Source: a virus. Taken from it: 20,044 nucleotides of DNA. Below, piece by piece: positions 1 through 20,044 of this stretch (position 1 is its first letter; the number at the start of each line of letters is the position of its first letter). The notes below the pieces were generated by a model that worked only from the letters and a program-made list of their open reading frames with translations, ran no database searches and was not told where the DNA came from. Made by a program: the position numbers and the translations under genes. Where the stretch lies: the IMG/VR virus record IMGVR_UViG_3300021379_001326, positions 1-20,044 of that record. The stretch is one strand, 5' to 3'.

Positions 1-52
1 CCTTTTTTCATGCGTCAGGTCGGTTTGAAAATTTCCCGTAATGTGTAAACAC

Positions 53-87
53 TTGTAATTCAGGCATTTGCGCCGTATCTTAATGCA
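53..87 (+). promoter_or_regulatory. Weak promoter candidate upstream of the first gene
   Basis: A TTG at 53-55 is followed 20 bases later by TATCTTAATGCA (76-87). This loosely resembles the Bacteroidota layout of a -33 TTTG and a -7 TAnnTTTG. The following leader is an almost pure CA repeat running into the ATG at 102. Positions 1-48 form an open frame ending in TAA. That could be the tail of an upstream gene, but it is too short to judge. Confidence 0.25.
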
Positions 88-101
88 ACACACACACACA
101 C

Positions 102-578
102 ATGAACTGGACACAAATCACAGTCAGCATGGTGCAAACCGTGACTGACCAGCAGCCCCACCCGGTAAAATTGGGTGACTGGTTGCGTGCCATGAAGGTC
201 AGCAACATTGACCACATCCACAAAAAAAACAGACCGGCACTGTTGCCCCACGGTGAGTTCAGAGGGGGCAGGACGGCAGCCCATTTGTGGAAGCCATCAG
301 GCATCATCCAATATGATATTGACCTGTCTGCCAATCCTGGACTGATTGTGGATGAATGCAAACGGCGTGCAGCTGATGACCCCACAATCCTGCTGTGTGC
401 ACGCAGTGCCGGTGGTGGGGTGTGGGGGTTGGCAATCCGTCAACCTGACCAGGACCAGCAGTTGAACAGCATTGAAACACTGTTTGATGTAAAATTGGAC
501 ACGGCAAACAGCCGGAACATGGCTGCACTGCGGTTCGCAGCCTACGATTCAGAACCGTACACAAACCACACAACATGA
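102..578 (+). CDS. VirE-N / BT4734-like primase-polymerase-type domain protein
   Basis: A 158-residue protein that fits the VirE N-terminal (BT4734/BF3469-like) family, a primase-polymerase-related domain common in Bacteroidota and their mobile elements. Visible hallmarks are the LPHGEF segment (about residues 48-53), a W-K-P-SG-x4-DID core (about 63-73) with the acidic pair expected for metal binding, the ARSAGGGVWG strand-turn (about 99-108), and the C-terminal LRFAAYDSEPYTN segment. In larger family members this domain is fused to a helicase or DUF3987-type region; here it stands alone. It probably acts in phage DNA priming or replication. The ATG is preceded by a CA-repeat leader without a Shine-Dalgarno sequence, and the stop overlaps the next start (ATGA). 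The family assignment is fairly secure; the biochemical role is inferred. Confidence 0.7.
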   Translation: MNWTQITVSMVQTVTDQQPHPVKLGDWLRAMKVSNIDHIHKKNRPALLPHGEFRGGRTAAHLWKPSGIIQYDIDLSANPGLIVDECKRRAADDPTILLCARSAGGGVWGLAIRQPDQDQQLNSIETLFDVKLDTANSRNMAALRFAAYDSEPYTNHTT

Positions 579-868
579 CAGATACATATCAAACTCTGAT
601 GCAGGACCTGCGCAGGACAAAAGAACCGGACGAAAACACACGTCAGTTGGTTTTTACCCTGTCCAAAATCATTGATGAAGAACAGATGTTGCAAAGCATC
701 GTTGACCGTGAAGGGGTGACCTATCAAACCACGGGTGACAAAGGACAGACCTACATTAAAAGCCGTCCTGAATATGTAGAGTTGCAACGGCTGCGGGACA
801 AAAAGCGTGCGTACATCGCTGCCATTGGAATCACGGAAGGTGAAGCCATCAACCCTGATTTTGCATGA
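575..868 (+). CDS. terS: Probable P27-family terminase small subunit
   Basis: A 97-residue, mostly helical protein. Its second half has the layout of P27-type small terminase subunits: a GVTYQTTGDKGQTYIKSRPE segment (about 47-66), then a basic helix ELQRLRDKKRAYIAAIGIT (about 69-87) that matches the usual 'nPa...L..lr..lGLT' ending. Small terminases recognise phage DNA and hand it to the large subunit for packaging. The gene lies about 1.5 kb upstream of the large terminase on the same strand, which fits, although several small genes intervene. It is translationally coupled to both neighbours by ATGA overlaps. The alternative is an unrelated small DNA-binding protein. Confidence 0.55.
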   Translation: MTDTYQTLMQDLRRTKEPDENTRQLVFTLSKIIDEEQMLQSIVDREGVTYQTTGDKGQTYIKSRPEYVELQRLRDKKRAYIAAIGITEGEAINPDFA

Positions 869-1302: not shown

Positions 1303-1322
1303 TGGAAAAATGTGTGTGATTG

Positions 1323-1355
1323 TTTGCAGGAATGAAACAATGATGTATATTGCAC
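1323..1355 (+). promoter_or_regulatory. Bacteroidota-like promoter (TTTG-N19-TATATTGCAC)
   Basis: TTTG at 1323-1326 is separated by exactly 19 bases from TATATTGCAC (1346-1355). This layout matches the Bacteroidota -33/-7 consensus apart from one missing T in TAnnTTTG. It lies in the 99-base gap between two genes, followed by a CA-rich leader to the ATG at 1402. It would transcribe the small genes and the large terminase. Confidence 0.5.
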
Positions 1356-1401
1356 CATCATTCAACGGCAAACACGCCAAAAACACACAAACACACACAC
1401 C

Positions 1402-1683: not shown

Positions 1684-1690
1684 CATCAAT

Positions 1691-1713: not shown

Positions 1714-1735
1714 ACAACCATACAACACACACACC

Positions 1736-2247: not shown

Positions 2248-2399
2248 TGGAAACCATTGTACTATGGAAGCGCAGGCACGTGGTGAACGGGGTTGAATAC
2301 GTTGCGACCACCTACGAAATCACAAATGAATTGGGCGGAAAGTGGATGCGCACAGAATGGATTACGGCGGAACGTGACAACCAGTTGAATCTGTTTTGA
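2247..2399 (+). CDS. 50-residue hypothetical protein
   Basis: A short frame beginning METIVLWKRRHVV and ending NQLNLF. It fills the 150 bases between the preceding stop and the large terminase, with TGATG overlaps on both sides (2245-2249 and 2397-2401). The composition suggests an antiparallel strand pair (VNGVEYVATTYEITNELGGK) followed by WMRTEWITAE. No family is recognised. Perfect coupling on both sides and the absence of any other frame in the gap argue that it is a gene. Confidence 0.5.
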   Translation: METIVLWKRRHVVNGVEYVATTYEITNELGGKWMRTEWITAERDNQLNLF

Positions 2400-3928
2400 T
2401 GCCTTACGATGAAGAAAAGGCAGAACGGGCAGTCAGGTGGATTGAAACGTACTGCACCCATGTGAAGGGTTCAAAAGGTGGTGAACCGTTCATCCTGGAA
2501 GATTGGCAAAAGGATGACATAATTCGTCCCCTGTTTGGGACCATGCGTGATGACGGGTTGCGCCAATACAGAACCTGTTATGTAGAGGTTCCACGGAAGA
2601 ACGGCAAATCAACCCTGTGTGCAGCACTGGCATTGTACATGCTTTGTGCTGACGGGGAACCAGGGGCAGAGGTTATCAGCGCGGCATCAGATAGGAATCA
2701 GGCACGGTTAGTGTTTGAGGTTGCGCAGGGAATGATTCGGCAGAATAGTGAACTGCGTTCACGGTTAGACCTGCAACAACATGCCATCAAATACGGTGCG
2801 AATTGGTACAAAGCCATATCAGCAGAGGCAAACACCAAACACGGTTTCAATTGTCACGCCGTCATCTATGATGAAATTCATTCAGCAACGTCACGTGACC
2901 TGTGGGATGTGCTCACCACGTCCACCGGTGCACGCACACAGCCCCTAATCATGGCAATCACCACCGCTGGTCATGACACCACAACCATCTGTTGGGAATT
3001 GCATGAATATGCCCGGAAGGTCAAACAGGGTGAAATTGATGATGATTCGTTTTTGCCGGTGTTGTACTCTGCTGACAAATCAGATGACTGGACAAAACCT
3101 GAAACGTGGGCAAAGGCAAACCCTGGATTGGGCAGTATCTGCATGCCGGAATACTTTGAGCAGGAAGTAAAACGTTGTCAGAACAACCCTTCACAGGTAA
3201 ATACATTCCTGCGTCTGCACCTTAACATATGGACCAGTTCAGCCGTGGCATGGATTACAGATGAACAGTTTATGAACGGGGGGCAACCCATACCGGAAGA
3301 CAGGTTGAAAGACCTTCCGTTATATGTGGGGCTGGATTTGAGCAGCACCCGTGACCTGACTGCCGTTGCCATGTTATGGCGTGATGATGAACGTGATGTG
3401 TTCTATCTGAAGTGTCACCATTTCGTCAATGAAGAAAAGGCACAATCACGGTCCCTGTCCGGTGGGGTGGATTACATCACCTTTCAGCGTGCCGGGTTGG
3501 TGAGCATAACGGACGGAAACGTGACTGACATGTATGCCGTGCGGAAATGGATTCAGGACCTGTCCGATAGGTATGAAATCACTGCACTGGCATTTGACCG
3601 GTGGTTGTCTCATTTGGTTGTTCCGTACCTGGATGGCATCAACTGCATTCCATTCGGTCAGGGGTATGCATCACAGTCATTCCCAACAAAAGAAATGGAA
3701 CGGCTGATGTGTCAGGGTAAAATCATTCACGGTGGTCACGCTGTGTTACGGTGGCAGATGCAGTGTGTGCAGCTGTCCAGGGATGAAGCCGACAACATCA
3801 AAGTGACCAAAAAGAAAAACAGTGAAAGCCAAAAAGTGGACGGGGTTATATCATCCATCATGGCACTGGGTTTGTATTTGGAAACGGCGCACAATTCGGA
3901 ACCTTTTTTGGAAATTGTCACACTGTGA
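2399..3928 (+). CDS. terL: Terminase large subunit
   Basis: A 509-residue packaging motor and nuclease of the HK97/phiC31-like Terminase_1 family. The ATPase domain shows a Walker A-type PRKNGKST (about residues 65-72), Walker B VIYDE (155-159) and a coupling motif ITTAG (187-191). The nuclease domain shows the acidic residues of the RNase H-like fold: GLDLSSTRD (D313), LAFDRW (D400) and KVDGV (D481). The protein pumps DNA into the prohead and cuts it at the portal. I chose the ATG at 2399, which overlaps the previous stop as TGATG, over the TTG one codon upstream. A hairpin terminator follows the gene. Confidence 0.95.
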   Translation: MPYDEEKAERAVRWIETYCTHVKGSKGGEPFILEDWQKDDIIRPLFGTMRDDGLRQYRTCYVEVPRKNGKSTLCAALALYMLCADGEPGAEVISAASDRNQARLVFEVAQGMIRQNSELRSRLDLQQHAIKYGANWYKAISAEANTKHGFNCHAVIYDEIHSATSRDLWDVLTTSTGARTQPLIMAITTAGHDTTTICWELHEYARKVKQGEIDDDSFLPVLYSADKSDDWTKPETWAKANPGLGSICMPEYFEQEVKRCQNNPSQVNTFLRLHLNIWTSSAVAWITDEQFMNGGQPIPEDRLKDLPLYVGLDLSSTRDLTAVAMLWRDDERDVFYLKCHHFVNEEKAQSRSLSGGVDYITFQRAGLVSITDGNVTDMYAVRKWIQDLSDRYEITALAFDRWLSHLVVPYLDGINCIPFGQGYASQSFPTKEMERLMCQGKIIHGGHAVLRWQMQCVQLSRDEADNIKVTKKKNSESQKVDGVISSIMALGLYLETAHNSEPFLEIVTL

Positions 3929-3963: not shown

Positions 3964-3991
3964 GAGGGGGCACCGTGTGGGTGCCCCTTTC
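3964..3991 (+). terminator. Intrinsic terminator after terL
   Basis: GGGGCACC (3967-3974), loop GTGTG, and GGTGCCCC (3980-3987) make a perfect 8-bp stem, extendable by three more pairs, followed by TTTCTATTTT. It separates terminase transcription from the portal-capsid unit. The same stem sequence with a different loop occurs at 7076-7096. Confidence 0.7.
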
Positions 3992-4006
3992 TATTTTGCA
4001 CCAATG
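3992..4006 (+). promoter_or_regulatory. TANNTTGCAC start element, copy 1 (portal)
   Basis: TATTTTGCAC (3992-4001) lies two bases before the portal ATG (4004). It resembles the Bacteroidota -7 box. If used as a promoter, the transcript would begin at or next to the start codon, giving a leaderless mRNA. No TTTG box is seen at the expected upstream distance, because the terminator hairpin occupies that space. Confidence 0.45.
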
Positions 4007-5236
4007 GCGAACATGCTTCAAAGAGTTACAAAAGCAATCCGGGCACGGGTTGGATTGGATGACCATGCAACTGTGTTGCAGTATTCCAATTTGTACGGAC
4101 CTACAACGTCAGGGGTTAGCATCACCAACACAACTGCGCTGACCATTTCGGCGGTTTACGCGTGCGTGTATAAGATTGCCGGCACCCTGGCACAACTGAA
4201 CCTGGATTTAATTCAGGTTGACGGCAGGACACGTGAACGCGTCAGGACACATCCAGCGTATTATGTGACGCAGGTCAGCCCTAATAAATACTGCACGCCG
4301 TTTGATTTTTGGGAAACCATTATCAGTCACGCCGTTTTACGTGGTGCCGGTCACGCATTGATTGAACGCAGTGCGGATGGTACCGTGCAGAGTTTGACAG
4401 TGCTGAACCCGGACGATGTTGAACGCCGTGAAATGAATGGCGCATATGTGTACCGGGTGCGTAATGAATTTACGGTGCAGCCTGATGACATGTTGGAAAT
4501 CTTCAACCTGTATAAAGCGTCACCCATCATGGTGCATCGTGATAACCTGGGTTTGTCAAAGGCTGTCCAGGACTACGGTGCGCAGTATTTCAGCAACGGT
4601 GGTCAGATGACGGGTGTGCTGTCCAGTGATACCCCGTTGCGTGCTGAACAAATGGAAGTAATCCAAAAGAGTTGGAACCGTTCAGCAACATCATCAGGGA
4701 CAAAACTGCTGCCGTTTGGCTTCAAATACAATCGGGTGAGCATCACACCGGATGAAGCGCAGTTCATCAACACCCGGCGTTTACAGGCAGAGGAAGTGTG
4801 CAGGATTTTCAGCGTACCCCCGTCCCTGATTCAGCTGGATACACAAAGCACATTCAACAACGTTGAACAGCAAAGCATTCAATTCACCCGGCACACCCTG
4901 GGTCCCTGGGCAAAGCGTATCGAACAGGAATTGAATCGGAAACTGTTGACCGTTTTTGAAATGGATGAACTGCAATTCAGGTTCCGCATGGGTGACCTGC
5001 ACCGTGGTGACATGGCAGGACGTGCGGCATTTTATCAGCAGGGGTTACAATCGGGATGGCTTACCATCAACGAGGTGCGCCAATTGGAAGATTTGAACCC
5101 AATCAACGGCGGGGATACTGCCACCGTTCAGGTGAATCAGGTGTCATTGAAACATTTTGACGATTACAGCAGGACCATCAGCCAACCAACAGAAAACAAC
5201 AATGAAGGAAGAACAACGGAAACAATTGCTGACTGA
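4004..5236 (+). CDS. Portal protein, HK97 family
   Basis: A 410-residue Phage_portal family protein. It forms the dodecameric ring at the capsid vertex through which DNA enters and leaves and to which the terminase docks. Recognisable parts are the N-terminal LTISAVYACVYKIAGTLAQL helix (about 43-62), the PNKYCTPFDFWETIISHAVLRGAGHALIER region with NPDDV following, and the core ARRLQAEEVCRIFSVPPSLI-type motif (here RRLQAEEVCRIFSVPPSLIQ). It ends with the helical wing and the ITINEVRQLEDLNPI-like segment (here WLTINEVRQLEDLNPI). Length is normal for the family. The ATG at 4004 is chosen because it immediately follows the start element; the gene overlaps the next by 35 bases. Confidence 0.95.
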   Translation: MANMLQRVTKAIRARVGLDDHATVLQYSNLYGPTTSGVSITNTTALTISAVYACVYKIAGTLAQLNLDLIQVDGRTRERVRTHPAYYVTQVSPNKYCTPFDFWETIISHAVLRGAGHALIERSADGTVQSLTVLNPDDVERREMNGAYVYRVRNEFTVQPDDMLEIFNLYKASPIMVHRDNLGLSKAVQDYGAQYFSNGGQMTGVLSSDTPLRAEQMEVIQKSWNRSATSSGTKLLPFGFKYNRVSITPDEAQFINTRRLQAEEVCRIFSVPPSLIQLDTQSTFNNVEQQSIQFTRHTLGPWAKRIEQELNRKLLTVFEMDELQFRFRMGDLHRGDMAGRAAFYQQGLQSGWLTINEVRQLEDLNPINGGDTATVQVNQVSLKHFDDYSRTISQPTENNNEGRTTETIAD

Positions 5237-7043
5237 CCAATATGGGCAATCAGTCGAGGTGCGCACGGGTGAAGTCCGTGCAGCAGAGTCAGACGAAATG
5301 GTCATTGAAGGGTATGCCGCCGTATTTGACCAGGTGACCAACATTGGTCCATTCCAAGAAGTCATTGACCGTGGTGCATTTGAAGGACATTTGAATGATG
5401 ACGTGCGGTTGTTGCTCAATCATGACGGTGCGCCAATGGCACGCACGTCCAACGGCACATTGACCCTGCGCACGGATGACCACGGGTTGCACTACACTGC
5501 AACGTTGGTTGATACAACTGCGTCACGGGATTTGTATGCCATGATTCAGCGCGGTGATATCAGTCAGTCATCATTTGCATTTACCATTGAAAAGGAAGAA
5601 AGGCAAAAGGATGGGGTGCGCAGAGTGATGCAGGTTGGTTCTATTTTAGACGTGTCACCGGTGACGTATCCTGCATACAGTACAACGGACGTAACTGCAC
5701 GCAGCCTGGACACGGAACCGGAACAGAAAACAGAAACAGAAACAGTTGAAACAATGAACAGGGAACTGACATTGAAAGACCTGCTGAAACTGCGTGAAGA
5801 CTACATGCAGAAACGTCAGGCAATCAAAGATGAAGCCGTGAAGGAAGACCGGGAATTGAATGACCAGGATGTCATTGAATTGGAACGGCTGGCAGGTGAG
5901 GTGTCCAAGTATGACCGACAAATCAAGGTCATGCGGGAAGACCAGAAATTGCAGGAATCTGCAATCCTCGCCGGTGGTCACACTGCATCCCGTTCCGAGG
6001 AACGCGAAATGCAAAACCTGGCAAAAAATTACAGCCTGGTTCGTGGCATTCAGCAGGTGTACCGTGGGCGCACGCTGACTGGCATTGAAGCGGAAATGAC
6101 AGAGGAAGCAAACCGGGAAGCAACGGCAGCCGGTCTCACCTTCCGTGGTCAATTGTCCATCCCACAAAAGATGTTGACCCGTGGTGTGGGTGACGCAGGT
6201 CACTGGGGTGCATCAGACACCACGAATGACCAGGGAACGCAGTTTGTTGGAACCAACGTTGGTCCTGCTATTGAGGCACTGCGGGCAGAAACCACTTTGC
6301 AACAGGCAGGGTGCACGGTGCTGAATGGACTTACGGCGGATTTGAAGATTCCGAAAATGACTGCCGGTGCCACCATCGCCGAAAAAGGTGAAGCGGTGGA
6401 CGCAGACAATTCCGGTCAGGCACTGGGTCAAACCCTGTTGCAACCCCGCCGGGCATCTGCATACACGCTGGTCACTGAACAACTGATGATGCAGGGTGGA
6501 AACGCCGTTGAATCATTGGTGGTGCGTGACCTGGCTGATGCTGTAAATGCCAAAATCGAAAACCTGGCATTTGTGGACATCCTCGATGGAATCGCAGGGG
6601 CATCCGACAACGTTGAAACGGCACTGGGTACCACCTCTGCTGTGGTGCATGGCATCATTAAAGATGCACTGGCTGACGGCGTGAACCGTGGCAACATCAG
6701 TGTGGTTGCCAATCCCCGTGCACACGGTCTGTTGGCTGCCATGCCTGACGTGTCTGCGGTGACGGCTGCAATGGTGGGCAACACCTTCCTGGGTTACCCT
6801 TACTATGTTGCAGGACAGATGCCGGATGACGCAACCAGTGGCAATGAATATTCTGATGGAATTGTGATTGTCGGGGATTTTGCACGTGGTGCCGTCATGG
6901 GCTTTTTCGGCGGGGTTGATGTTGTAATTAATCCGTATACCTACGACATCAGCAACCAGGTCCGAATTTCAATTCATAGGCACTTCGATTCAGACGTGTT
7001 GCAGACCGGTGCACTGCATGCCCGGTATGACGCAACCACCTGA
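5202..7043 (+). CDS. Fused prohead protease and major capsid protein, HK97 type
   Basis: A single 613-residue frame joins two proteins that are usually separate. Residues about 1-165 are the U35 prohead protease: VIEGYAAVFDQ, EVIDRGAF, then LLLNHD (catalytic His74) and GDISQSSFAF (Ser124, the usual spacing after His), ending DVSPVTYPAY. Residues about 185-250 form the charged, helical delta/scaffold domain. Residues about 290-613 are the HK97-fold coat protein, with LTADLKIPKM, E-loop-like charged segments, and NAKIENLAFVDILDG. The start at 5202 removes an implausible N-terminal extension inside the portal gene. A Met at residue 185 (nt 5754), after an A-rich stretch, could give a separate capsid precursor. 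Self-cleavage to mature coat is expected but not demonstrated. Confidence 0.92.
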   Translation: MKEEQRKQLLTDQYGQSVEVRTGEVRAAESDEMVIEGYAAVFDQVTNIGPFQEVIDRGAFEGHLNDDVRLLLNHDGAPMARTSNGTLTLRTDDHGLHYTATLVDTTASRDLYAMIQRGDISQSSFAFTIEKEERQKDGVRRVMQVGSILDVSPVTYPAYSTTDVTARSLDTEPEQKTETETVETMNRELTLKDLLKLREDYMQKRQAIKDEAVKEDRELNDQDVIELERLAGEVSKYDRQIKVMREDQKLQESAILAGGHTASRSEEREMQNLAKNYSLVRGIQQVYRGRTLTGIEAEMTEEANREATAAGLTFRGQLSIPQKMLTRGVGDAGHWGASDTTNDQGTQFVGTNVGPAIEALRAETTLQQAGCTVLNGLTADLKIPKMTAGATIAEKGEAVDADNSGQALGQTLLQPRRASAYTLVTEQLMMQGGNAVESLVVRDLADAVNAKIENLAFVDILDGIAGASDNVETALGTTSAVVHGIIKDALADGVNRGNISVVANPRAHGLLAAMPDVSAVTAAMVGNTFLGYPYYVAGQMPDDATSGNEYSDGIVIVGDFARGAVMGFFGGVDVVINPYTYDISNQVRISIHRHFDSDVLQTGALHARYDATT

Positions 7044-7101: not shown

Positions 7102-7115
7102 ACTTTGCACAAATG
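7101..7115 (+). promoter_or_regulatory. TANNTTGCAC start element, copy 2 (connector)
   Basis: TACTTTGCAC (7101-7110) is two bases before the ATG at 7113, the same spacing as at the portal start. From the CCCC of the hairpin to the ATG, the two sites match at 20 of 23 positions. It probably restarts transcription for the connector and tail genes. Confidence 0.5.
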
Positions 7116-7679
7116 CAGGTAACCATAGGAACACGGGAAGACCCGGACAACGTTTTGTCATTGGCAGAGGTGAAGAGACACCTACGGGTGACGCATACCC
7201 TGGAAGACACGTTGTTGACATCCATCAGGAATGCAGCCATTCGGTGGGTTGAATCGTACTGCAACATCAGCCTGGGACGTATTGAGGCATACGGGTATTT
7301 ACCCCACTTCAAAACCAGTTATTTTCCGGTGGGTCCGGTTGCCTCTGTTGAATCTGTTCAATATGAAACAGACAACACAGGCACGTTGTCCACGCTTCAA
7401 TCATCCAGCTATCATGTGGACTTGAAGACGCAGCCGGCACGGATTGCATTTAGCGACTATCCTGCACCGTATGAATATGCATTGATGCCAATCAAAATCA
7501 CTTTCACTTACGGGCATGCAACAGACAACCTGCCACCCAACATCATTGCTGCAATCAAGTTGGTGTGTGGGCAGTTGTATGAAAACCGTCAGGAAGAAAT
7601 AACGGGGACAATCACCACGCGTTTGAAATTGGGTGTTGATGCACTGTTGTCATCTGAACGCATATTGTACCAACCATGA
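7113..7679 (+). CDS. Head-tail connector, HK97 gp6-like
   Basis: A 188-residue protein of the phage gp6-like connector family (Phage_connect_1/gp15-type adaptor), which sits as a ring under the portal. The N-terminal signature LSLAEVKRHLRV (about 16-27), followed by an acidic residue pair and a helix with AAIRWVESYCNI, is typical. So is the C-terminal helix LPPNIIAAIKLVCGQLYENRQE. The middle is strand-rich. It comes directly after the capsid gene, as in HK97, and its stop overlaps the next gene's ATG. Transcription probably restarts just before it. Confidence 0.85.
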   Translation: MQVTIGTREDPDNVLSLAEVKRHLRVTHTLEDTLLTSIRNAAIRWVESYCNISLGRIEAYGYLPHFKTSYFPVGPVASVESVQYETDNTGTLSTLQSSSYHVDLKTQPARIAFSDYPAPYEYALMPIKITFTYGHATDNLPPNIIAAIKLVCGQLYENRQEEITGTITTRLKLGVDALLSSERILYQP

Positions 7680-8032
7680 AAAACCCTGGACGGCTTTCGG
7701 AAGTCATCGACATTCGGCGCACCACGTTGACACACGATGGATATGGTCAGCCCATTGCAGACAGCACAACAGACGTTCAGGTGTGGGCAGAGGTTATCCA
7801 CCCCGGCAGCGCAGCAGAGTCCGTGAAGGCTTCACAGATTTACCCGGAACGGTCAGTGACATTTGTGATTCGTCACCCTAACCCAACGGGTGACGCGTCT
7901 GCCACCACATTCAATGAATCTGATGTGGTCATTTACGATGGTGTTGAACACAACATCATTGGTATTGCACCCATTGGACGGCGTGACGGGTTGACCATCT
8001 ATTGCAAACGCAGAGGCACACACGATGTCTGA
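7676..8032 (+). CDS. Head-tail joining protein (SPP1 gp16 / Phage_H_T_join type)
   Basis: A 118-residue strand-rich protein with the family pattern: GRLSEVIDIRR at the start, DGYGQPI about 20 residues in, VWAEVIHPGSAAE, then a strand with VTFVIRHPN, VVIYDGVEHNIIGIAPIG and a final RDGLTIYCKR strand. These proteins close the connector and form the interface for tail attachment. The position between the gp6-like and gp10-like genes is the standard order. Overlapping ATGA coupling on the upstream side and an 8-base overlap downstream indicate coordinated translation. Confidence 0.85.
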   Translation: MKNPGRLSEVIDIRRTTLTHDGYGQPIADSTTDVQVWAEVIHPGSAAESVKASQIYPERSVTFVIRHPNPTGDASATTFNESDVVIYDGVEHNIIGIAPIGRRDGLTIYCKRRGTHDV

Positions 8033-8609
8033 CACAGCGCGGAACCTGGGGAAGGTGAAAGGATTGGAAGACCTGCAACGGAAGTTGAACAGGTTGGCAC
8101 GCTATGGGGCAACTAATTTGAAAGAGGTGCAAAAGGCACACAAAGTGGTTGCACAAATCGGGGTTGATGCTGTGAAAAGTCAAATAACGGACTACCCTGA
8201 AACCATACGCGTGCGCAGAGGGGAACGGAAAAACAAAGGAAAGCGGGGACCGTCCTATGACATCCAATCAGGCAACCTGAAAAACAGTATCGGTATTTCC
8301 AGGAACGTGGTCAATGAAATGAACGTGCTGATTGTTCCCCGGTCAGGTATGGTGGCACGTGAACGGCGTGCCCCACAGGATGGGCAGTTGTTGAAGAGGG
8401 ATGGATATTATGCGCACATGGTCGAAATGGGAATCAAACCACGGACGGCAAAAGGTTACCGGGGTTTCATGGGTGGACCAGGTGAACCCGTAGTGGGTGC
8501 AAAAAACCGGGGATTTTTTAGCCGGGGTATTCGGCAGAGTATGTCAGCCATGCAAACAGAGTTTGTGCGACAGCACCGGCGTTTGTGGGGCAAGGAAGCG
8601 CGGAAATAA
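8025..8609 (+). CDS. HK97 gp10-like head-tail/tail protein
   Basis: A 194-residue member of the HK97 gp10 family. Seen features are VKGLEDLQRKLNRL at the N-terminus, an AVKSQI helix, the SGNLKNSIGI strand that in this family reads 'tG.Lr.SI', then YYAHMVEMGI (the 'YA..vE.G' motif) and a basic C-terminal helix ending GIRQSMSAMQTEF. It is longer than many relatives because of a basic insertion (RVRRGERKNKGKRG, about 62-75). The role is probably tail completion or neck assembly. The stop overlaps the next start as TAATG. Confidence 0.85.
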   Translation: MSDTARNLGKVKGLEDLQRKLNRLARYGATNLKEVQKAHKVVAQIGVDAVKSQITDYPETIRVRRGERKNKGKRGPSYDIQSGNLKNSIGISRNVVNEMNVLIVPRSGMVARERRAPQDGQLLKRDGYYAHMVEMGIKPRTAKGYRGFMGGPGEPVVGAKNRGFFSRGIRQSMSAMQTEFVRQHRRLWGKEARK

Positions 8610-9496
8610 TGGAAGCGGGAAAAGCAATTTATTATCTGCTGTCAAACAGCACGGCGGTGGGCAACATCTGTGATGACAGGATATATCCTGAAATAGCACA
8701 ACAGACGGCAGACATGCCGTTCATCATCTACACCATCCAGTCTGCAAACCCGTCAGGAACAAAGACGGGGACCAGCACCCTGGATGAAGTGCAATTCGAG
8801 GTGATGACGTTCAGCACCAATTACAGTGAATGCATGGACCTGGGCACGGCGGCACGTGGTGCACTGGACCGGGTTGGTGGTGTCATCAACGGTGTGCAGG
8901 TTCAGTCCATTGATTTCAAAACACAATCCGTTGACTACGACTACACCACAGATGCACACATTTTGGTGCAGGTGTATGACATGCGGTTGTCATTCGTTGG
9001 CACGGCAGGTTCATACAACCCCATCAATGTCATTGCTACATACGATGCAATCCAGGTAGGTTTCACCGGGCAGCAAAAGACAGGGGGCAGCAGTGAACAT
9101 GTGGTGAGTGGGACAACGGCAGCACGTCTGCCGTGGTCCGTGCAGGACATCAAAACGTCATCCATTTTCACCCTGGCACCAAACGCAGCAGGGAACGTGT
9201 CGTGCAACGGCACGGGCATTTATAAACTGACGGCGTGCGTGACGTTTAATTCAGAGGGAAACAACGTTGAACCGCACATTTATTTTAAGGTGGAAGGCAG
9301 ACAATTGGAAACCCACGGCACGGCGTACATCAAAGGGGGTTCCAACAATGACCATAGCACTGCCGTCATTAGTCAAATTGTAGAAATCACAAACACGGAA
9401 CGTGTCAGCGTGTGGGCGTATGATGATGCAAACAGCAATGAAGGTGCAACCATTGAACACGGGTTGTTACTCATTGAAAGGATGTCCAGCACCTGA
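8609..9496 (+). CDS. Tail terminator (DUF3168/gp17-like) fused to a C1q/TNF-like jelly-roll domain
   Basis: A 295-residue two-domain protein. Residues about 1-130 match the DUF3168 tail-completion family: an N-terminal helix with IYYLLSNSTAVG, DDRIYPEIAQQTADMPFIIYTI, then strand-loop-helix with VQFEVMTFS and LGTAARGALDRV, ending in HILVQVYDMRL. Family members are usually about 120-140 residues. The extra C-terminal half (about 145-295) is strand-rich and reads like a C1q/TNF-type sandwich: SSIFTLAPNAAGNVSCNGTGIY, YKLTACVTF, EPHIYFKVEGRQL, STAVISQIVEI, ERVSVWAYDD and HGLLLIERM. The start at 8609 is chosen for its TAATG overlap. The second domain would project from the neck or tail end, perhaps as a decoration or adhesin. 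The domain call is by pattern only. Confidence 0.75.
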   Translation: MEAGKAIYYLLSNSTAVGNICDDRIYPEIAQQTADMPFIIYTIQSANPSGTKTGTSTLDEVQFEVMTFSTNYSECMDLGTAARGALDRVGGVINGVQVQSIDFKTQSVDYDYTTDAHILVQVYDMRLSFVGTAGSYNPINVIATYDAIQVGFTGQQKTGGSSEHVVSGTTAARLPWSVQDIKTSSIFTLAPNAAGNVSCNGTGIYKLTACVTFNSEGNNVEPHIYFKVEGRQLETHGTAYIKGGSNNDHSTAVISQIVEITNTERVSVWAYDDANSNEGATIEHGLLLIERMSST

Positions 9497-9534: not shown

Positions 9535-9714
9535 ATTGATTTCATTATTTCCAACTGGGGTGAATTGCTCATCGCATTCATGGCATTCACAAAGGCTGTG
9601 TTGAATCTGATTCCGTCACCTGCCGGTGACAAACCACGTGCGGTGTTTGCATACCTTGACATGTTGGTAGATGCAATCATCAGCAACAACGAAAAAACAA
9701 AAGGTCAGGAATAA
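9532..9714 (+). CDS. Small hydrophobic protein of unknown function
   Basis: A 60-residue protein. I choose the ATG at 9532 because it follows a TANNTTGCAT element; a start at 9505 would place ten extra residues inside it. Residues about 3-27 are largely hydrophobic (IISNWGELLIAFMAFTKAVLNLI) and could be a single membrane helix or an amphipathic helix. The rest is polar. It sits between the tail terminator and the major tail protein, where a membrane protein is not expected, so it may instead be a small virion or assembly protein. The stop overlaps the next start (TAATG). Confidence 0.6.
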   Translation: MIDFIISNWGELLIAFMAFTKAVLNLIPSPAGDKPRAVFAYLDMLVDAIISNNEKTKGQE

Positions 9715-10121
9715 TGGCAGTAATGAACGGAACTCTGATTGAAGTCACCGTAGGTGGCACGGCAATCAGTCTGCAAACGGAATGCAGTATCAGCCTGAAT
9801 GGTGAACTGCGGGACATCACGAATAAGGAATCAGGGGGCTGGAAGTCCAGCCTGATGGGTCTGCGTTCAGGGTCAATCAATTTCAGCGTGCTGCACGATG
9901 AAGGTGAAGATTACAACATGCAGCAACTGTGGTCAGCGTGGACCAGCGACACCGCAACGGCATCAGTAAAATTTACCACGGGTGTTACCGGTGATTATGA
10001 ATTCACTGCATCAGGTTGGTTCACGTCCCTGGAAATGAACGCCGGCACGGAAGACAATGTGACTGTTAGCGGCACCATTGAACTGGATGGCGCAATCACT
10101 TACACCGTTATTTCCGGATGA
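9714..10121 (+). CDS. Major tail protein
   Basis: A 135-residue tail-tube protein of the TP901-1/Phage_tail_2 type. It shows the expected pattern: GTLIEVTVGGTAISLQTECSISLN at the start, a D-I-TNKESGGWKSSLMGLRSGSINFSVLHDEG segment corresponding to the 't..s.gW.e.l.G.ks.t.s.sg' motif, and SGWFTSLEMNAGTEDNVTVSGTIELDG at the end. It assembles as hexameric rings around the tape measure. The position upstream of the chaperone pair and tape measure is standard. At 135 residues it is near the short end for the family. Confidence 0.88.
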   Translation: MAVMNGTLIEVTVGGTAISLQTECSISLNGELRDITNKESGGWKSSLMGLRSGSINFSVLHDEGEDYNMQQLWSAWTSDTATASVKFTTGVTGDYEFTASGWFTSLEMNAGTEDNVTVSGTIELDGAITYTVISG

Positions 10122-10414
10122 CGCAAACTGTTCAACTGGGTGATAAGACATTTCACCTGCGTGCCACGATGGGCGCACTGCGTGCAGCAAAGACCCAACA
10201 CGGCATTGACATCACAACAATGGGTGATGACCCGTTGGATGTTGTTGTGTTGTGTTATCACTTTGCATGTGCAGGGGCTAAAACACAGGGGCAGGAATTG
10301 ACCATGACCCTGGAAGAGTTTGAAGAACTCATTACGCCGGCGGAACTGCCGGTGATAAGTGAATCCCTGGCAGCAGTGATGCAGGTTGACACAAAAAAAA
10401 AGGGAAGACGGTGA
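10118..10414 (+). CDS. Tail assembly chaperone, G-like
   Basis: A 98-residue protein in the position of lambda gpG: after the major tail protein and before the tape measure. It is a small, helical, acidic protein (VQLGDKTFHLRATMGALRAAKTQHGID at the start and LEEFEELITPAELPVISESLAAVMQ near the end). It ends with Thr-Lys-Lys-Lys-Gly-Arg-Arg, encoded over a run of nine A at 10393-10401. The downstream frame (to 10745) lacks a convincing start of its own and overlaps this region, so a fraction of ribosomes probably shift to make a longer GT-type product. It binds the tape measure during assembly and is absent from the finished virion in known systems. Confidence 0.82.
   Translation: MTQTVQLGDKTFHLRATMGALRAAKTQHGIDITTMGDDPLDVVVLCYHFACAGAKTQGQELTMTLEEFEELITPAELPVISESLAAVMQVDTKKKGRR
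10393..10403 (+). promoter_or_regulatory. Slippery A9 site for programmed frameshifting
   Basis: Nine A followed by GGG, read in the G frame as AAA-AAA-AAG. The downstream T frame is +1 relative to G, equivalent to -2. A -2 slip puts tRNA-Lys on AAA-AAA with full pairing, then AGG. Mu is a known example of a -2 shift at this locus. Transcriptional slippage at A9 is an alternative. Confidence 0.65.
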
Positions 10415-10745
10415 CGGGGAAACGTTGACCGTTGATGACCTGTTTTCATTGGGGCTGGGCTGCATGCGGTTCAGCCCCTCTGTTTTTTGGTCAATGGATT
10501 ACTGTGATTTCATGTGTGCACTTGATGGACACATGGAAATGACGGAACGGGCTGAACAAATGGAATGGGAACGGGTGCGGTGGTTGGCATGTGTGCTGCT
10601 GACCCCACACAGCAAACCAGGCAGGACGATGCAACCCCGTGACCTTATACGGTTCCCCTGGGATACCTTACAACCGAAAGTGACAAAGGCACAACAACAG
10701 GCAGGGGCAGACATGCTGATGAAGATTGCAAAACAAAAGAAATGA
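10395..10745 (+). CDS. Tail assembly chaperone, T part of the GT fusion
   Basis: About 116 residues, in the +1 (-2) frame relative to the G-like gene, running from the A9 slippery tract to a stop overlapping the tape-measure ATG. The translation after the shift reads REDGDGETLTVDDLFSLGLGCM, then an acidic helical region (SMDYCDFMCALDGHMEMTERAEQMEWERVRWL), and ends in a Lys/Gln-rich helix. An acidic ending before the tape measure is typical of the T extension that contacts the tape measure. The frame is open upstream to a TTG at 10386, but I see no good start. The fusion product would be about 210 residues. Confidence 0.75.
   Translation, partial: KKREDGDGETLTVDDLFSLGLGCMRFSPSVFWSMDYCDFMCALDGHMEMTERAEQMEWERVRWLACVLLTPHSKPGRTMQPRDLIRFPWDTLQPKVTKAQQQAGADMLMKIAKQKK
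10451..10488 (+). terminator. Terminator-like hairpin inside the GT coding region
   Basis: GGGGCTG (10451-10457) pairs with CAGCCCC (10472-10478) around a 14-base loop that contains the self-complementary GCATGC, and is followed by TCTGTTTTTT. It looks like an intrinsic terminator but lies within the T frame, about 50 bases after the slippery run. It could attenuate tape-measure and tail-fibre transcription, or simply be coding coincidence. Confidence 0.3.
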
Positions 10746-12778
10746 GGTTATCAGAACTATTGGTGTCCATTGGACTGGAAGCAAAGTCATTGCGCAAACT
10801 CAATCAGCAGTTGGGTGAAACGCAAAGACGGTTCAGAAAGTCATTCGGAAACATTCAAAAAACTGTCCAGCAGTTCGGTCAGAACATGACTAGGCTGGTG
10901 ACAATGCCGTTGGCGGGGTTGGCTGTCGGTGCTGTGAAAAGTGCAGCCGATTTGGAACGGCTTGAAACATCGTTTATCAGTCTGACTGGCAGCGCAGGGA
11001 ATGCAGCAGCCATGATGCAGAACCTGAATGCGTTCACCGCACGCACGCCGTTTCAAATCGAACAGGTGGCAACGGCGGCACGTCAGTTGATGGCATCAGG
11101 TTCCGGCATCAATGAGGTGAACGGACAACTGCAATTCCTGGGTGACATCGCAGCAACGTCCGGGGTCAGCATTGAGGAAATTGCAGCCATATTCAGCAAA
11201 GTCAACGCAAAGGGGAAGGTAGAACTTGAAAGCCTGAACCAGTTGGCTGAACGTGGCATCCCCATATTTAAAGCGTTGTCAGATGCTACCGGGTTACCTG
11301 CTGACAAACTGGGTGCCGGTGCTGTGTCGGTGGAACAGTTCAACACCGTCCTGTCATCGTTTGCACGTGAGGGGGGGTTCGCGTCCGGTGCAATGGAACG
11401 TCTGTCACAGACGGCATCAGGCAAACTGTCCACGGCAATGGATAACCTGAAAATTGCAGGGGCTGAATTGGTGGAATCATTAATGCCTCACATCAATGAA
11501 TTCCTGGATTTTCTGACACGGGCTGCGCAGGGTTTCACAAACATGTCAGATGAAGGAAAAACATCCATTTTGATGATTGCCGGTTTATTAGCTGCTGCTG
11601 GTCCGATTGCAATGGCAATCAGTGCGCTGATGCCAATCATTGCAGGGTTGACCGGTCCTGTGGGTTTAGTAGCAATCGCATTTGGTGCGCTGGCACTGCT
11701 GATTGTGCGCAATTTTGAAGTGGTTGAACCTGCAATCATCAACCTGGTAAACCTGGTCATCAAATTCCAAAACAAAACAAAGGTTTTGGGTCTGATTTTT
11801 AATGTGGTGAAAACTTCGATTGGGACCGCACTGCGGTTTATTGAAATGAAGTTTCAAAACCTGATGACATCAGTGTCATCCATCGCGGAAGCTATTGAAT
11901 TAGCATTCAGCGGGGATTTCACTGCTGCCGGTGCTGCAATGGAACGGGGTGCAGCGGAAAACAACCGGCGCATGATTGAATTTGCGCAGCAAACTGCACA
12001 AGACTTCAACACGGCAATTGATGACGCGTTGAATGCGGAACCGATTGCAGAGTTAGAACCCGGTGCAATTAGTCGGTGGGTGGACAACATTAAAACATCC
12101 ATTGCAGACGCATTTACATCCAGTGGTCCGGTGACCGTGCCGGTGGAACCAACCACGCCGGAAGAAACGGACACCAGTGGTGGTGAGGTGGCACCGACCA
12201 CATTTGGTGCGCAATTTTTCATCACGGATGAAATGGTGAACGCAGCTGATGCACGCGTGGAACGATTGAAAAACACCATGACCATGCTGGGTGACCACAT
12301 GCGGCAGGTGGGCGGTGCCTTCCGTGATTCGTTCAGCAGTGCATTTGATGTGGTACTGGATGGCGGTGACAACATGAAAGAACAGCTGACCAACATTGGT
12401 CGTGACCTGCTGAAAAACCTGATGAAGATTGCAATTGGAAACGCCATTGCTGCGGCATTCAGTCCACTATCTGCGGACAACGCTGCCACGGGTGGCATGG
12501 CTGGCATTTTGAAATCATCCCTGTTGCAGGGTCTCATTCCATCTATGATGCCCAAACTGCGCCGGGGGGGATTGGCTTTCGGTCCCACCACCGCCGTGGT
12601 CGGTGACAACGTTGGTGCAAAGGTTGACCCGGAAGTCATTGCACCGTTGTCCAAACTCAAAAACATGATGGGCGGCAACAACCTATCTGCTACCATCAGC
12701 GGCAGGGACATACTGTTGACCAGCAGCCGTGACCGTAACCGTTCACGCCGTACATACGGCAGCTATTCATTTGCATAA
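10742..12778 (+). CDS. Tail tape measure protein
   Basis: A 678-residue protein with the TP901-type tape-measure core. The N-terminal helices are rich in Gln/Arg/Lys (SLRKLNQQLGETQRRFRKSFGNIQKTVQQFG). They are followed by the signature block AADLERLETSFISLTGSAGNAAAMMQNLNAFTARTPFQIEQV and ISIEEI-like ATSGVSIEEIAAIFSKVNAKGKVELESLNQLAERGIPI. A strongly hydrophobic stretch (about residues 278-325) probably inserts in the host membrane at DNA delivery. The C-terminus is Gly/Ala-rich with LRRGGLAFGPTTAVVGDN, a common ending. Using the rule of about 0.15 nm per residue, the tail would be roughly 100 nm. Coupled to its neighbours by ATGA and TAATG overlaps. Confidence 0.93.
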   Translation: MRLSELLVSIGLEAKSLRKLNQQLGETQRRFRKSFGNIQKTVQQFGQNMTRLVTMPLAGLAVGAVKSAADLERLETSFISLTGSAGNAAAMMQNLNAFTARTPFQIEQVATAARQLMASGSGINEVNGQLQFLGDIAATSGVSIEEIAAIFSKVNAKGKVELESLNQLAERGIPIFKALSDATGLPADKLGAGAVSVEQFNTVLSSFAREGGFASGAMERLSQTASGKLSTAMDNLKIAGAELVESLMPHINEFLDFLTRAAQGFTNMSDEGKTSILMIAGLLAAAGPIAMAISALMPIIAGLTGPVGLVAIAFGALALLIVRNFEVVEPAIINLVNLVIKFQNKTKVLGLIFNVVKTSIGTALRFIEMKFQNLMTSVSSIAEAIELAFSGDFTAAGAAMERGAAENNRRMIEFAQQTAQDFNTAIDDALNAEPIAELEPGAISRWVDNIKTSIADAFTSSGPVTVPVEPTTPEETDTSGGEVAPTTFGAQFFITDEMVNAADARVERLKNTMTMLGDHMRQVGGAFRDSFSSAFDVVLDGGDNMKEQLTNIGRDLLKNLMKIAIGNAIAAAFSPLSADNAATGGMAGILKSSLLQGLIPSMMPKLRRGGLAFGPTTAVVGDNVGAKVDPEVIAPLSKLKNMMGGNNLSATISGRDILLTSSRDRNRSRRTYGSYSFA

Positions 12779-15777: not shown

Positions 15778-15920
15778 TGCACCTATCTGCATACACCGAA
15801 GAAACACGTGAGGACATCGCAGATGTTGAAAGGCTGCGTGACCTGTTTGATGAACTGATGACGGTGCTGTCTGATATTGAACGCCGTTTGGAAACCCTGG
15901 AAAATGCGCAAAATCCATAG
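15777..15920 (+). CDS. 47-residue coiled-coil protein
   Basis: A short gene in the gap between the tail fibre and the amidase, starting at a TGATG overlap and ending TAG inside the amidase start region. From residue 7 on it is acidic and heptad-like (EETREDIADVERLRDLFDELMTVLSDIERRLETLEN), consistent with a single coiled coil. It could be a small structural or lysis-accessory protein. No family is recognised; coupling on both sides supports expression. Confidence 0.5.
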   Translation: MHLSAYTEETREDIADVERLRDLFDELMTVLSDIERRLETLENAQNP

Positions 15921-16434
15921 AATCATTCTGCATTGTAGTGCAACCAAACCGGACCATGATGTGACAATGGATGACCTGCGCACCTGGCACGTGGACGGCA
16001 ATGGGTGGAAGGATGTAGGCTACCATTACAGCATCCGTTTAGATGGCACATTAGAGGTGGGCAGACCCGTGCAGAAAGTTGGGGCAGGTGTGAAGGGGCA
16101 CAACACGGACACCGTGCATGTGTGCTATATCGGCGGACTGGATGACACCGGCAAACCGGCAAACACCCTGAATGATGACCAGCGTGCGACACTGTACACG
16201 GTTTGCACGTCCCTGGTCCGTGTTTTCGGTCCCCTCGAATTGATGGGGCACAATGATTTGACAGATGAAAAGGAATGCCCGTCATTCAGAGTCAGTACCG
16301 AATTGGCGGAATTGGTTCAATGGTGCACGGCACCTGACGGAAATGCACCGCAACCAGGTGCAAACAAAGGGGGACCTGAAACGGTGGCACCCCGCAAATA
16401 CTGTCGGCGGTGTAATCGTCGGTTCCGCATGTGA
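15904..16434 (+). CDS. N-acetylmuramoyl-L-alanine amidase (T7 lysozyme-like endolysin)
   Basis: A 176-residue zinc amidase (Amidase_2 family) that cuts the bond between muramic acid and the stem peptide to release phage. Zinc ligands are visible as LHCSAT (His10), GHND (His116) and KECPSF (Cys125). The Tyr and Lys of the T7 lysozyme site correspond to GYHY (Tyr40) and Lys123. The start at 15904 gives MRKIHRIILHCSAT, the normal compact N-terminus; an upstream start at 15877 only adds residues inside the preceding gene. The C-terminus is a Pro/Gly-rich tail ending in a basic CRRCNRRFRM. There is no signal peptide, so a holin is needed. Confidence 0.92.
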   Translation: MRKIHRIILHCSATKPDHDVTMDDLRTWHVDGNGWKDVGYHYSIRLDGTLEVGRPVQKVGAGVKGHNTDTVHVCYIGGLDDTGKPANTLNDDQRATLYTVCTSLVRVFGPLELMGHNDLTDEKECPSFRVSTELAELVQWCTAPDGNAPQPGANKGGPETVAPRKYCRRCNRRFRM

Positions 16435-17313: not shown

Positions 17314-17537
17314 TGACGAAAGTGGTCACACACCGTGACAGAACATACACGGAAGATGAAGCCGTGCAGATTTCCACCCTACGTGCTGAACGGTGGGGGC
17401 TGCTGATGATGTTTGATGAATTGCAAAAGGTGTCAGGCAGCGTGGCAAAAGAAAAGGCACGGAAAACCTGGAAACGCATTGAAGTCATCAATTCACAATT
17501 GTTCAAACTGACGAAAAACCCCATATATAACCCATGA
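17313..17537 (+). CDS. Small basic helical protein between SSB and exonuclease
   Basis: A 74-residue protein (MTKVVTHRDRTYTEDEAVQISTL...), probably all helical apart from the first strand pair. It is rich in Lys and Arg (KEKARKTWKR near residue 46). It may be an accessory to the SSB-exonuclease pair, but no family is recognised. It is coupled to both neighbours by stop/start overlaps. Confidence 0.55.
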   Translation: MTKVVTHRDRTYTEDEAVQISTLRAERWGLLMMFDELQKVSGSVAKEKARKTWKRIEVINSQLFKLTKNPIYNP

Positions 17538-18313
17538 AACACACAGACACATATGGACCGTTATCATTCAGCAGCCTGAATGCCTTTGCACAGTCACCCC
17601 GTGCATTTGTCCATTACAAAACCGCTGAACGCGTCCAAACCCCTGCAATGAGGATGGGCACGATGGCACACCGGCACATCTTGGAACCGGCGTTGTTCAA
17701 CAGCAGCACGGTAGTTTATGAGGGGCACCGCAGGGGGAATGCGTGGAAGGAATTTCAGCAGGAACATGAAGGCAAAGACATCCTGACGGCAGCGGAAATG
17801 GACCAGCTGCACGGGATGAAACAGGCTATCAAAGACCATCCCGGTGCGCTGCGTCTGCTGCAACAATGTGAAGTGCGTGAAATGCCGGTAGACTTCACAA
17901 AATGGGGCATCAAACACAGGGGCATCGTGGACGCGTTTGGTGCCGGGTTCCTGATGGATTTGAAAATCACCAACGATGTCAGTGAACGTGCATTGTCCAG
18001 GGTGATATATGAACGCCGGTATTACATGCAAGCTGCCATATATGCCCATGCAATGACGTATCATGGATACACGGTTGATGAATGCTACATCATTGCCGTG
18101 CAGAGTTCAGCACCCTATCATGTGACCGTTTGTGAACTGCTGCCACATTATATTGTGCGGGGACATGACGAATGGTGCCGGTTGTTGGAATTGTTTCAGG
18201 ACTGGGACGGGGAACCACACCACGCACATGGTGAGTCATCAACCATTGAAGTTGATGCACCCATGTGGGCACCTTTGCCGGAAGCCATGACAGGTGATAA
18301 ACGGAAGGGATAA
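17534..18313 (+). CDS. Exonuclease VIII/RecE-like PD-(D/E)XK nuclease
   Basis: A 259-residue recombination nuclease of the exodeoxyribonuclease VIII-like (DUF3799 / PDDEXK_1) family. It shows LSFSSLNAFAQSPRAFVHYKT (about 10-30), an entry seen in many PDDEXK exonucleases; MRMGTMAHRHILEP with His46 and Glu51; the catalytic core GIVDAFG-x3-LMDLKITND with Asp133 and Asp142-Leu-Lys144; and Gln166/Tyr170 in YYMQAAIYAHAM, as in RecB-type nucleases. It probably resects double-stranded ends 5'-3' for recombination with the adjacent SSB. A separate RecT-like annealase is not seen in this window. Confidence 0.85.
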   Translation: MKHTDTYGPLSFSSLNAFAQSPRAFVHYKTAERVQTPAMRMGTMAHRHILEPALFNSSTVVYEGHRRGNAWKEFQQEHEGKDILTAAEMDQLHGMKQAIKDHPGALRLLQQCEVREMPVDFTKWGIKHRGIVDAFGAGFLMDLKITNDVSERALSRVIYERRYYMQAAIYAHAMTYHGYTVDECYIIAVQSSAPYHVTVCELLPHYIVRGHDEWCRLLELFQDWDGEPHHAHGESSTIEVDAPMWAPLPEAMTGDKRKG

Positions 18314-18626
18314 GGGAAAACGGTACGAATTGAAAATCGCAGCAATGTGGTCAGATGAATTCGGTGGCACCGTGGAACGGTCAGGCTACGTCAATAAAAA
18401 ATTGGATGATGCCGGGGTGGACTTGGTGGGCACAGACCCATTCAACATCCAGTGCAAAGCCGTTGAATCGAGCATCAACGTTCATCGAATATTGGAACGG
18501 ATGCCGATTGACAGCAACATGAATGTGGTCTTTCACAAACGCAACCACGCCGGCACGGTGGTCAGTATGACGATGGAAGATTTCATGGAAATGGTCAAAA
18601 TGCTGCGTCATTCGGGGGTGTTGTGA
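18294..18626 (+). CDS. Hjc-like PD-(D/E)XK nuclease (possible Holliday junction resolvase)
   Basis: A 110-residue small nuclease starting at a GTG, 20 bases inside the preceding gene. The motif order matches Hjc-type resolvases: GKRYELKIA (Glu12) in the first helix, a basic ERSGYVNKK loop, GVDLVG (Asp43) and NIQCKAVE with Gln53-x-Lys55. It is followed by a strand pair NVVFHKRN and VVSMTMEDF, then a helix. GTG is preferred since the first ATG would remove the catalytic Glu. It likely cuts branched DNA before packaging; substrate specificity is inferred. Confidence 0.7.
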   Translation: MINGRDKGKRYELKIAAMWSDEFGGTVERSGYVNKKLDDAGVDLVGTDPFNIQCKAVESSINVHRILERMPIDSNMNVVFHKRNHAGTVVSMTMEDFMEMVKMLRHSGVL

Positions 18627-18856
18627 CTGAACGCACCTATAAAGCCGTTTTCACGTGTCCTGCACTGGATGAACGCGTGGTTTGGTATGTGAGCAGTCAC
18701 CACAAAGCGCGGAAGATGATGAACGCCCATATCTGTGGATACAAAAAGAGGTTGAAACAGTACCGGGGGATGAAGGAAGGCACGGATTATCATTTGCAGG
18801 TTGTGCCCATGTTTGACCCCCTGCCTGATGTGGGCATCATCGACACAGGCAGATGA
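18623..18856 (+). CDS. Small hypothetical protein with GTG start
   Basis: A 77-residue protein beginning with GTG overlapping the preceding stop (GTGA). The N-terminal half reads as alternating strands (YKAVFTCPALDERVVWYVSS) and a helix with HHKARKMMNAHICGYKKRLKQY. The rest is YHLQVVPMFD, then a flexible end. It is basic overall. No family is recognised. It lies between the resolvase and the initiator with coupling on both sides, suggesting a DNA metabolism accessory role. Confidence 0.6.
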   Translation: MTERTYKAVFTCPALDERVVWYVSSHHKARKMMNAHICGYKKRLKQYRGMKEGTDYHLQVVPMFDPLPDVGIIDTGR

Positions 18857-19617
18857 TTAAATTCATTCACCTGCCGGTCCACATTTGGAACATGGCAGAA
18901 CTGCAACCAGGTCAACGGGTGTTGTTGGCACTGGTTCACGGGTTCACTGCGTCAGGACGTGGGCTGACAATGAGCAACAGCGCACTGGGGGACGTGTTAG
19001 GGGTTAGCCCCCGCACGGTACGCCGTTGGCTGTCACAATTGACGGAAATGGGACACGTGAGGATGTCGGACAACGATGGTCAAAGGGTGGTCATTTTGTC
19101 CAGGGGGGTGGACACAGCTTTGTCCGGGGGGGTGGACACAGCTTTGTCCGGGGGGGGTGGTCACAGCTATGTCCACCATATAGTAAAGAACAATTCAATT
19201 GATACCAATCATAATAATGGGAAGGAAATGAAGAGACCGACAGTTGACCAGGTGACAGAATACCTGATGACCACACCACCGGTGCAGACGGCACGCATGG
19301 GACGTGGTGACGTGAAACGGGTGGCAGCAGATGCCGTGCAGTATTATGAAGCGAATGAATGGCGCACTGCGCAGGGGCATGAAGTCACACAATGGCGGGG
19401 GGTGATGGTGGCATGGGTCAAACGCGTGTTGAAGGATTACAGACCACGGCAGCAAAGACCACAGGCAGACCCTGACCAGCTACGGCGTGATATAGCATGG
19501 CACACCAAACGCATGCTGAATTATGAGTGCACCGGGCGTGCTCACCTGGCAGCATCAGAGGCACACAGCATTCACGAACTGCAACAGCAGTTGAAACAGA
19601 TGGGGCATGAAGGATGA
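18853..19617 (+). CDS. Replication initiator with N-terminal helix-turn-helix
   Basis: A 254-residue protein. Residues about 20-80 form a helix-turn-helix/winged-helix unit (LTMSNSALGDVLGVSPRTVRRWLSQLTEMGHVRM, then a strand pair). Residues 85-100 are a tandem repeat of GVDTALSG, encoded by DNA iterons. Residues 101-130 are a hydrophilic, Asn/His/Lys-rich linker. The C-terminal domain (about 131-200) has AVQYYEANEWRTAQGHEVTQWRGVMVAWVKR, the 'fy.yYe..gW..g...v.dW......W..r' motif seen in phage replication proteins such as gpO- or DnaD-like replisome organisers. It probably binds the internal iterons and loads a helicase. The order HTH, iteron-encoded stretch, C-terminal interaction domain resembles lambda O in plan; homology is not implied. 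Confidence 0.75.
   Translation: MIKFIHLPVHIWNMAELQPGQRVLLALVHGFTASGRGLTMSNSALGDVLGVSPRTVRRWLSQLTEMGHVRMSDNDGQRVVILSRGVDTALSGGVDTALSGGGGHSYVHHIVKNNSIDTNHNNGKEMKRPTVDQVTEYLMTTPPVQTARMGRGDVKRVAADAVQYYEANEWRTAQGHEVTQWRGVMVAWVKRVLKDYRPRQQRPQADPDQLRRDIAWHTKRMLNYECTGRAHLAASEAHSIHELQQQLKQMGHEG
19088..19177 (+). repeat. Palindromic iteron array inside the initiator gene (putative origin)
   Basis: Three 24-25-base direct repeats (19095-19118, 19119-19142, 19143-19167), flanked by half copies. The first holds the inverted repeat TGTCCA-GGGGGG-TGGACA (19097-19114); the second keeps TGTCC and TGGACA around G7; the third has G8 and TGGTCA. TGGTCA also occurs at 19088-19093, and ATGTCCACC ends the array. 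Each repeat is about two helical turns, as expected for initiator sites. Confidence 0.7.
19178..19218. other. AT-rich tract next to the iterons (candidate DNA-unwinding element)
   Basis: Of 41 bases, 33 are A or T, in a genome of about equal composition. It directly follows the iterons and encodes only the Asn/His/Ile-rich linker of the initiator. The arrangement matches the lambda origin, where iterons in gene O are followed by an AT-rich stretch that melts. Confidence 0.55.
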
Positions 19618-19711
19618 CAGGGGCAGTGCGTATCGGTGTCTGTTGTTTGGGTACCTGGGTGTCATCATCACGTTGGTGGTGATTATAGTGATGAAGTTAT
19701 GCCGTGGATGA
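19607..19711 (+). CDS. 34-residue single-pass membrane protein
   Basis: A very short gene overlapping the initiator's end by 11 bases and the HNH start by ATGA (19708-19711). It reads MKDDRGSAYRC, then a strongly hydrophobic helix (about 12-30: LLFGYLGVIITLVVIIVMK), then LCRG. The charge pattern and the double coupling argue for a true product, not a chance frame. The role is unknown; it might be a small lysis regulator or a superinfection-exclusion-type protein, which is only speculation. Confidence 0.5.
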   Translation: MKDDRGSAYRCLLFGYLGVIITLVVIIVMKLCRG

Positions 19712-20001
19712 AGCTGCCCCCACGCCGTAAGGGTGGGCACGGCAGTGACCCACGGTACAACAGTAAGCAATGGCGCAGGTACCGTGCAGCGTACCTGATG
19801 ACACACCCCCTGTGTTGTGAATGCAGCCGGGCAGCGGAAGTGGTTGACCACATCAAGCCGGTGAGGTTGTTCCCTGACTTGGATTTCTACGACAGCACCA
19901 ACCACGCACCCATGTGCCACGCATGCCACAACGCAAAGCGCGGCAGGGAATCACACATGTCCAGGACGTATGATGGTCCACGCAACAAACAAAAGCGGTG
20001 A
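19708..20001 (+). CDS. HNH endonuclease
   Basis: A 97-residue HNH nuclease. Motifs run in order: a basic N-terminus with SKQWRRYRAAYL, CCEC (zinc pair Cys36/Cys39), VVDHIKP (the catalytic Asp47-His48 core), a loop with FPDLDFYDSTN (Asn65), and MCHACHNAKRGRE (Cys70/Cys73 zinc pair and the final His74-Asn75). I choose the ATG at 19708, which overlaps the previous stop; the longer GTG start at 19636 would run through the small membrane gene. HNH nucleases often aid terminase cutting in HK97-like phages, but this one is in the replication module and may act in recombination or as a homing nuclease. Confidence 0.85.
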   Translation: MKLPPRRKGGHGSDPRYNSKQWRRYRAAYLMTHPLCCECSRAAEVVDHIKPVRLFPDLDFYDSTNHAPMCHACHNAKRGRESHMSRTYDGPRNKQKR

Positions 20002-20044
20002 CGGGGATGGGGGTGCAGAAAATGATTCAAGCGGTGCGGGACAT
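19998..20044 (+). CDS. Start of a further gene, cut by the window edge
   Basis: A frame opens at GTG (19998), overlapping the HNH stop as GTGA, and stays open to the end of the window (MTGMGVQKMIQAVRD...). The coupling pattern is the same as for the previous genes. An ATG at 20007 in the same frame is an alternative start. Too little is visible to name it. Confidence 0.4.
   Translation, partial: MTGMGVQKMIQAVRD

Follow-up and report, generated by a model that had tools for sequence, protein, structure and literature searches.

Loss of GATC from phage genomes has precedents. Staphylococcus phage K has lost its GATC (Sau3AI) sites (PMC6532042), and Rosenblumvirus phages such as the 17.6-kb phiAGO1.3 are devoid of GGNCC and poor in other restriction-modification (R-M) sites (PMC6346686). 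A survey of prokaryotic viruses lists GATC among the consistently avoided sites and finds little elimination outside orthodox Type II sites, asymmetric words of the GGAG type not usually being eliminated by phages (PMC6286503). The window analysed here is the whole of IMG/VR record IMGVR_UViG_3300021379_001326, 20,044 bp in length and hereafter called phage A. Like phage K, it is a phage genome freed of GATC, an absence that we likewise put down to a GATC-specific enzyme; unlike phage K, with its 140 kb and its known host and enzyme, it measures 20 kb and is missing several other words too. It resembles phiAGO1.3 in being a small, apparently lytic genome that would evade several R-M systems through missing sites, whereas phiAGO1.3 is an unrelated S. 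aureus podovirus that lacks other words and still holds 2 GATC. Site avoidance is thus already known as a strategy (PMC6286503), and phage A is an unusually clear form of it. Relative to the survey, the group to which phage A belongs adds switching of avoidance between sister lineages, and its asymmetric GGAG purge does not agree with a rule of avoidance mainly at orthodox Type II sites.

A direct count found 0 GATC across the 20,044 bases, in agreement with a preliminary description that had reported none in 20 kb. Dinucleotide shuffling predicts 62.4 ± 8.0 sites (100 shuffles), and a second-order Markov model, a comparison of the kind that the description had proposed, predicts 70. With proteins and codon usage held fixed, shuffling of synonymous codons gave an expectation of 74.7 ± 6.6; fixing the dinucleotide at codon junctions as well gave 37.3 ± 5.1, with a minimum of 25 among 500 shuffles. 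GATG occurs 184 times against 116.7 expected under a maximal-order model, which shows that GAT is by itself no rarity. This phage group does have an odd dinucleotide and codon bias, which depresses many words, for example CAAG and GAGA, and GATC might have been removed as a side effect of it; that codon-preserving nulls still expect 37–75 sites makes this extremely improbable.

The preliminary description had also taken the gap to be specific to GATC. This part did not stand, as GGCC, GGAG and CTCC are equally missing and about as extreme. Under the stricter codon shuffle, the zero counts compare with expectations of 43 ± 5 for GGCC, 27 ± 4 for GGAG and 24 ± 4 for CTCC, and the same null predicts 31 ± 5 CTNAG, 16 ± 3 CTGCAG and 10 ± 2 CCATGG, all of which are likewise absent. 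CCWWGG and CGCCAC are also at zero, where dinucleotide frequencies predict 26 and 15. About 4,300 words were scanned, and some of the smaller zero-count words, being the best of these, are given with reserve. CCWGG is over-represented, with 71 occurrences against 45 ± 5 under the codon null.

The gene content of phage A is that of a compact tailed-phage genome, and the genes described here all lie on the + strand. The left end encodes a protein with a BT4734-like N-terminal (PrimPol-associated) domain (102–578; Pfam PF08800, E = 6.5e-9; PADLOC PrimPol model, 7.5e-10) and a possible small terminase subunit (575–868; PF05119, E = 9.5e-4, below the curated cut-off). The large terminase (2396–3928; phrog_9, E = 7e-152) is followed by the portal protein (3977–5236; phrog_12, E = 1e-99) and a fused head maturation protease and major capsid protein (5157–7043; phrog_80, E = 7e-55, and phrog_617, E = 2e-43). 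Head-tail connectors, a head completion protein and a tail terminator occupy 7113–9496 (phrog_442, phrog_5, phrog_347, PF05521), and the tail tube, tail assembly proteins and tape measure 9714–12778 (PF06199; phrog_9959). Upstream of the tape measure, the open reading frames at 10118–10414 and 10386–10745 overlap, a layout suggestive of tail assembly chaperones produced by programmed frameshifting. An amidase endolysin lies at 15877–16434 (phrog_822, E = 3e-52), and genes for an exonuclease VIII-like protein, a RusA-like resolvase, replication initiation and an HNH endonuclease fill 17534–20001.

The ends of the record could be placed with the help of two relatives. Contig L001, from relative B, spans both ends of phage A: from base 34 to about base 86 it aligns to the 3' end, after which come nine bases, CGCCGGTGA, and then the first base of phage A (L001:34-96). 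Contig L003, from relative D, begins at the same position as phage A. We infer that the genome is nearly complete, at about 20,053 bp, and that the record falls about 9 bases short of closing. The joint at 1/20044 probably represents the genome ends, perhaps formed by cohesive ends that overhang by nine bases. A normal frequency of GATC in the rest of the genome would have spoken against selection; since the record equals the window and the relative's contig bridges both ends, hardly any genome, if any, is left to hold such sites.

Searches with the terminase, capsid, portal and tape-measure genes recovered three related populations; the replication gene of phage A retrieved no relative. Population B comprises L001, L002 and L062/L023, which are 99.9% alike and come from metagenomes of South San Francisco Bay that PMC11334935 lists; C comprises L004 and L021, 99.5% alike; and D comprises L003, L013, L022 and L070, 97–99.7% alike. 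The group spans 77–86% DNA identity, with B and C about 85% identical. In the tree, B and C are sisters, joined next by phage A, and D lies outside, with 100% bootstrap support at the relevant nodes. All three populations share the odd dinucleotide signature of phage A (AG/CT about 0.6, TA about 0.4, TG/CA about 1.6), which more distant relatives, at 69% terminase identity, do not carry; the signature may mark the host of the group. Cultured phage relatives, all below 60% identity and with mixed hosts, gave no lead to that host, and the relatives yielded no tRNAs as a host clue.

The missing words differ between these populations, and this contrast is the decisive line of evidence. Given as observed over first-order expected counts, with overlapping contigs trimmed, GATC stands at 0/62 in A and 0/56 in B, and at 28/37 in C and 26/37 in D. 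GGCC is absent from A (0/80), B (0/75) and C (0/41) and present in D (77/66). The pair GGAG and CTCC follows with 0/89, 0/86, 0/54 and 12/55 in A to D. CCWGG, in excess in A (71/38), is wholly or nearly gone from B (0/38), C (2/21) and D (0/24), and GCSGC counts 15/32, 5/30, 0/18 and 74/44 in the same order. Composition hardly varies among A, B and C, yet the set of absent words does, and composition can therefore be dismissed as the cause; C and D share the bias but retain GATC, which refutes the compositional account. With B and C as sister groups, at least two changes in GATC status are required, either two losses or a single loss with a later regain in C. The GATC sites common to C and D, which bear on this choice, number 2/10 and 1/11, against about 30% expected; they come from overlapping data and are too few to favour either history.

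Contigs of the wider group bear on whether the gap was made in the laboratory, by cutting of the DNA at GATC before sequencing. Such cutting would in principle yield GATC-free contigs, but nothing pointing to it was found. L002, with 0 GATC, and L012, with 11 where 13 would be expected, both come from one metagenome, 3300044676, which shows that the libraries from San Francisco Bay, at least, are not GATC-depleted. DNA cut in this way would, moreover, not assemble to 20 kb, and the chance of a library or assembly artefact is very small.

We then followed individual sites. Not one of 26 GATC of C that align to phage A is kept there, whereas 42% of all tetramers, and 44/78 GATG, are unchanged between A and C. 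The GATC of C fare no better in B (0/18 and 0/16 kept, against 55% and 53% of all tetramers). Within genes of phage A, 16/25 replacements leave both amino acids unchanged. If a host methylase marked the cytosine of GATC, deamination would turn the sites into GATT or AATC, and 10/26 replaced sites in phage A do read so. The other 16, which include CATC, GACC, GAAC and TATC among others, cannot arise by C-to-T change, and the replacements in B are similarly varied. Mutation would also leave an equilibrium, whereas the loss is total, and mutational loss of this kind is very improbable. Mixed, mostly silent replacement is instead the mark that selection against GATC leaves in such alignments; a methylated base that deaminates does not leave it.

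Selection could also have been exerted by another GATC-targeting defence, such as a phosphorothioate-based Dnd system, Type IIM or Type IV enzymes that target Dam-methylated GATC, or avoidance of a CRISPR adjacent motif. Known Dnd contexts include GATC and GGCC, and A and B lack both words. Phages are also reported to avoid GATC as a Type IIM site (PMC6286503). In C, however, the two words are uncoupled, GATC being kept and GGCC missing, and the fall of several distinct words to zero is what site-specific cutters would be expected to produce. We regard such a defence as unlikely.

Taken together, the absence of GATC is best read as real and made by selection, through host restriction acting on GATC as one of several purged words, a reading to which we assign a probability of roughly 0.86. 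The preliminary description's proposal of selection by a GATC-targeting restriction or defence system is thereby supported, by the switching of words between sisters of equal composition, the joint loss of several unrelated words that resemble restriction sites and the mixed, mostly silent replacements. Genomes with GATC would be cut or otherwise targeted on entry into bacteria carrying a GATC-specific restriction enzyme, and the sites would be removed one by one, mainly via silent mutations. Phage A would escape by having no site and shows no DNA methyltransferase: PHROG and Pfam annotation gave none, and the DNA methylase families PF00145 and PF02086 had no match. The same purging would apply to GGCC and to GGAG/CTCC, and in particular lineages to CCWGG, GCSGC and others, with one enzyme per word. 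With several words purged, several restriction systems must be present among the hosts taken together. That the agent is a restriction enzyme, and what its type and host would be, is deduced from sequence; a DpnII-like enzyme, a DpnI-like (Type IIM) enzyme and a GATC-targeting nuclease outside R-M would not be separable by the sequence deficit alone.

Phage A thus combines a word missing against both composition and coding constraint, dependence on lineage, mixed and largely silent loss, and no methyltransferase hit of its own that would point to relief from the pressure. Two observations weigh against purging by host restriction: GATC is near normal in C, so not all close relatives face the pressure, and GGAG, being asymmetric, is of a site type that phages seldom eliminate (PMC6286503). 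No host or host R-M system was found for phage A, a terminase search of genome contigs giving only 57%, 42% and 41% matches. The best of these (57%), on a 17-kb contig in a Pirellulaceae MAG, was rejected as a host lead; its dinucleotide signature is unlike that of phage A.

Among the relatives, no phage-borne methyltransferase was found except a C5 enzyme in a distant relative (G011/L057). The genome of this more distant relative is similar in size, and its C5 DNA methyltransferase, on L069 (G011:C1:20694-21248), is perhaps the alternative answer to restriction.

Near relatives with different purged words amount to a natural experiment, in which site avoidance can switch inside one phage group at 77–86% DNA identity. 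Likely restriction specificities of coastal hosts may in this way be readable from phage sequence alone, and the predicted specificities GATC, GGCC, GGAG, CCWGG and GCSGC could help to locate the hosts.

The asymmetric word GGAG/CTCC is at zero on both strands in lineages A, B and C and rare in D. Avoidance of Shine-Dalgarno sequences alone was rejected as the cause of GGAG loss, as CTCC on the coding strand is also at 0. We speculate, tentatively and with more doubt than confidence, that a restriction-like system, widespread along coasts and specific for an asymmetric four-base word, lies behind its absence from three lineages, and that the phage group records turnover of host restriction repertoires. 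Lastly, a further case of a purged word in the wider group comes from L060: this distant relative on another contig has 0 CTNAG against 35 expected, with normal GATC, GGCC and CCWGG.
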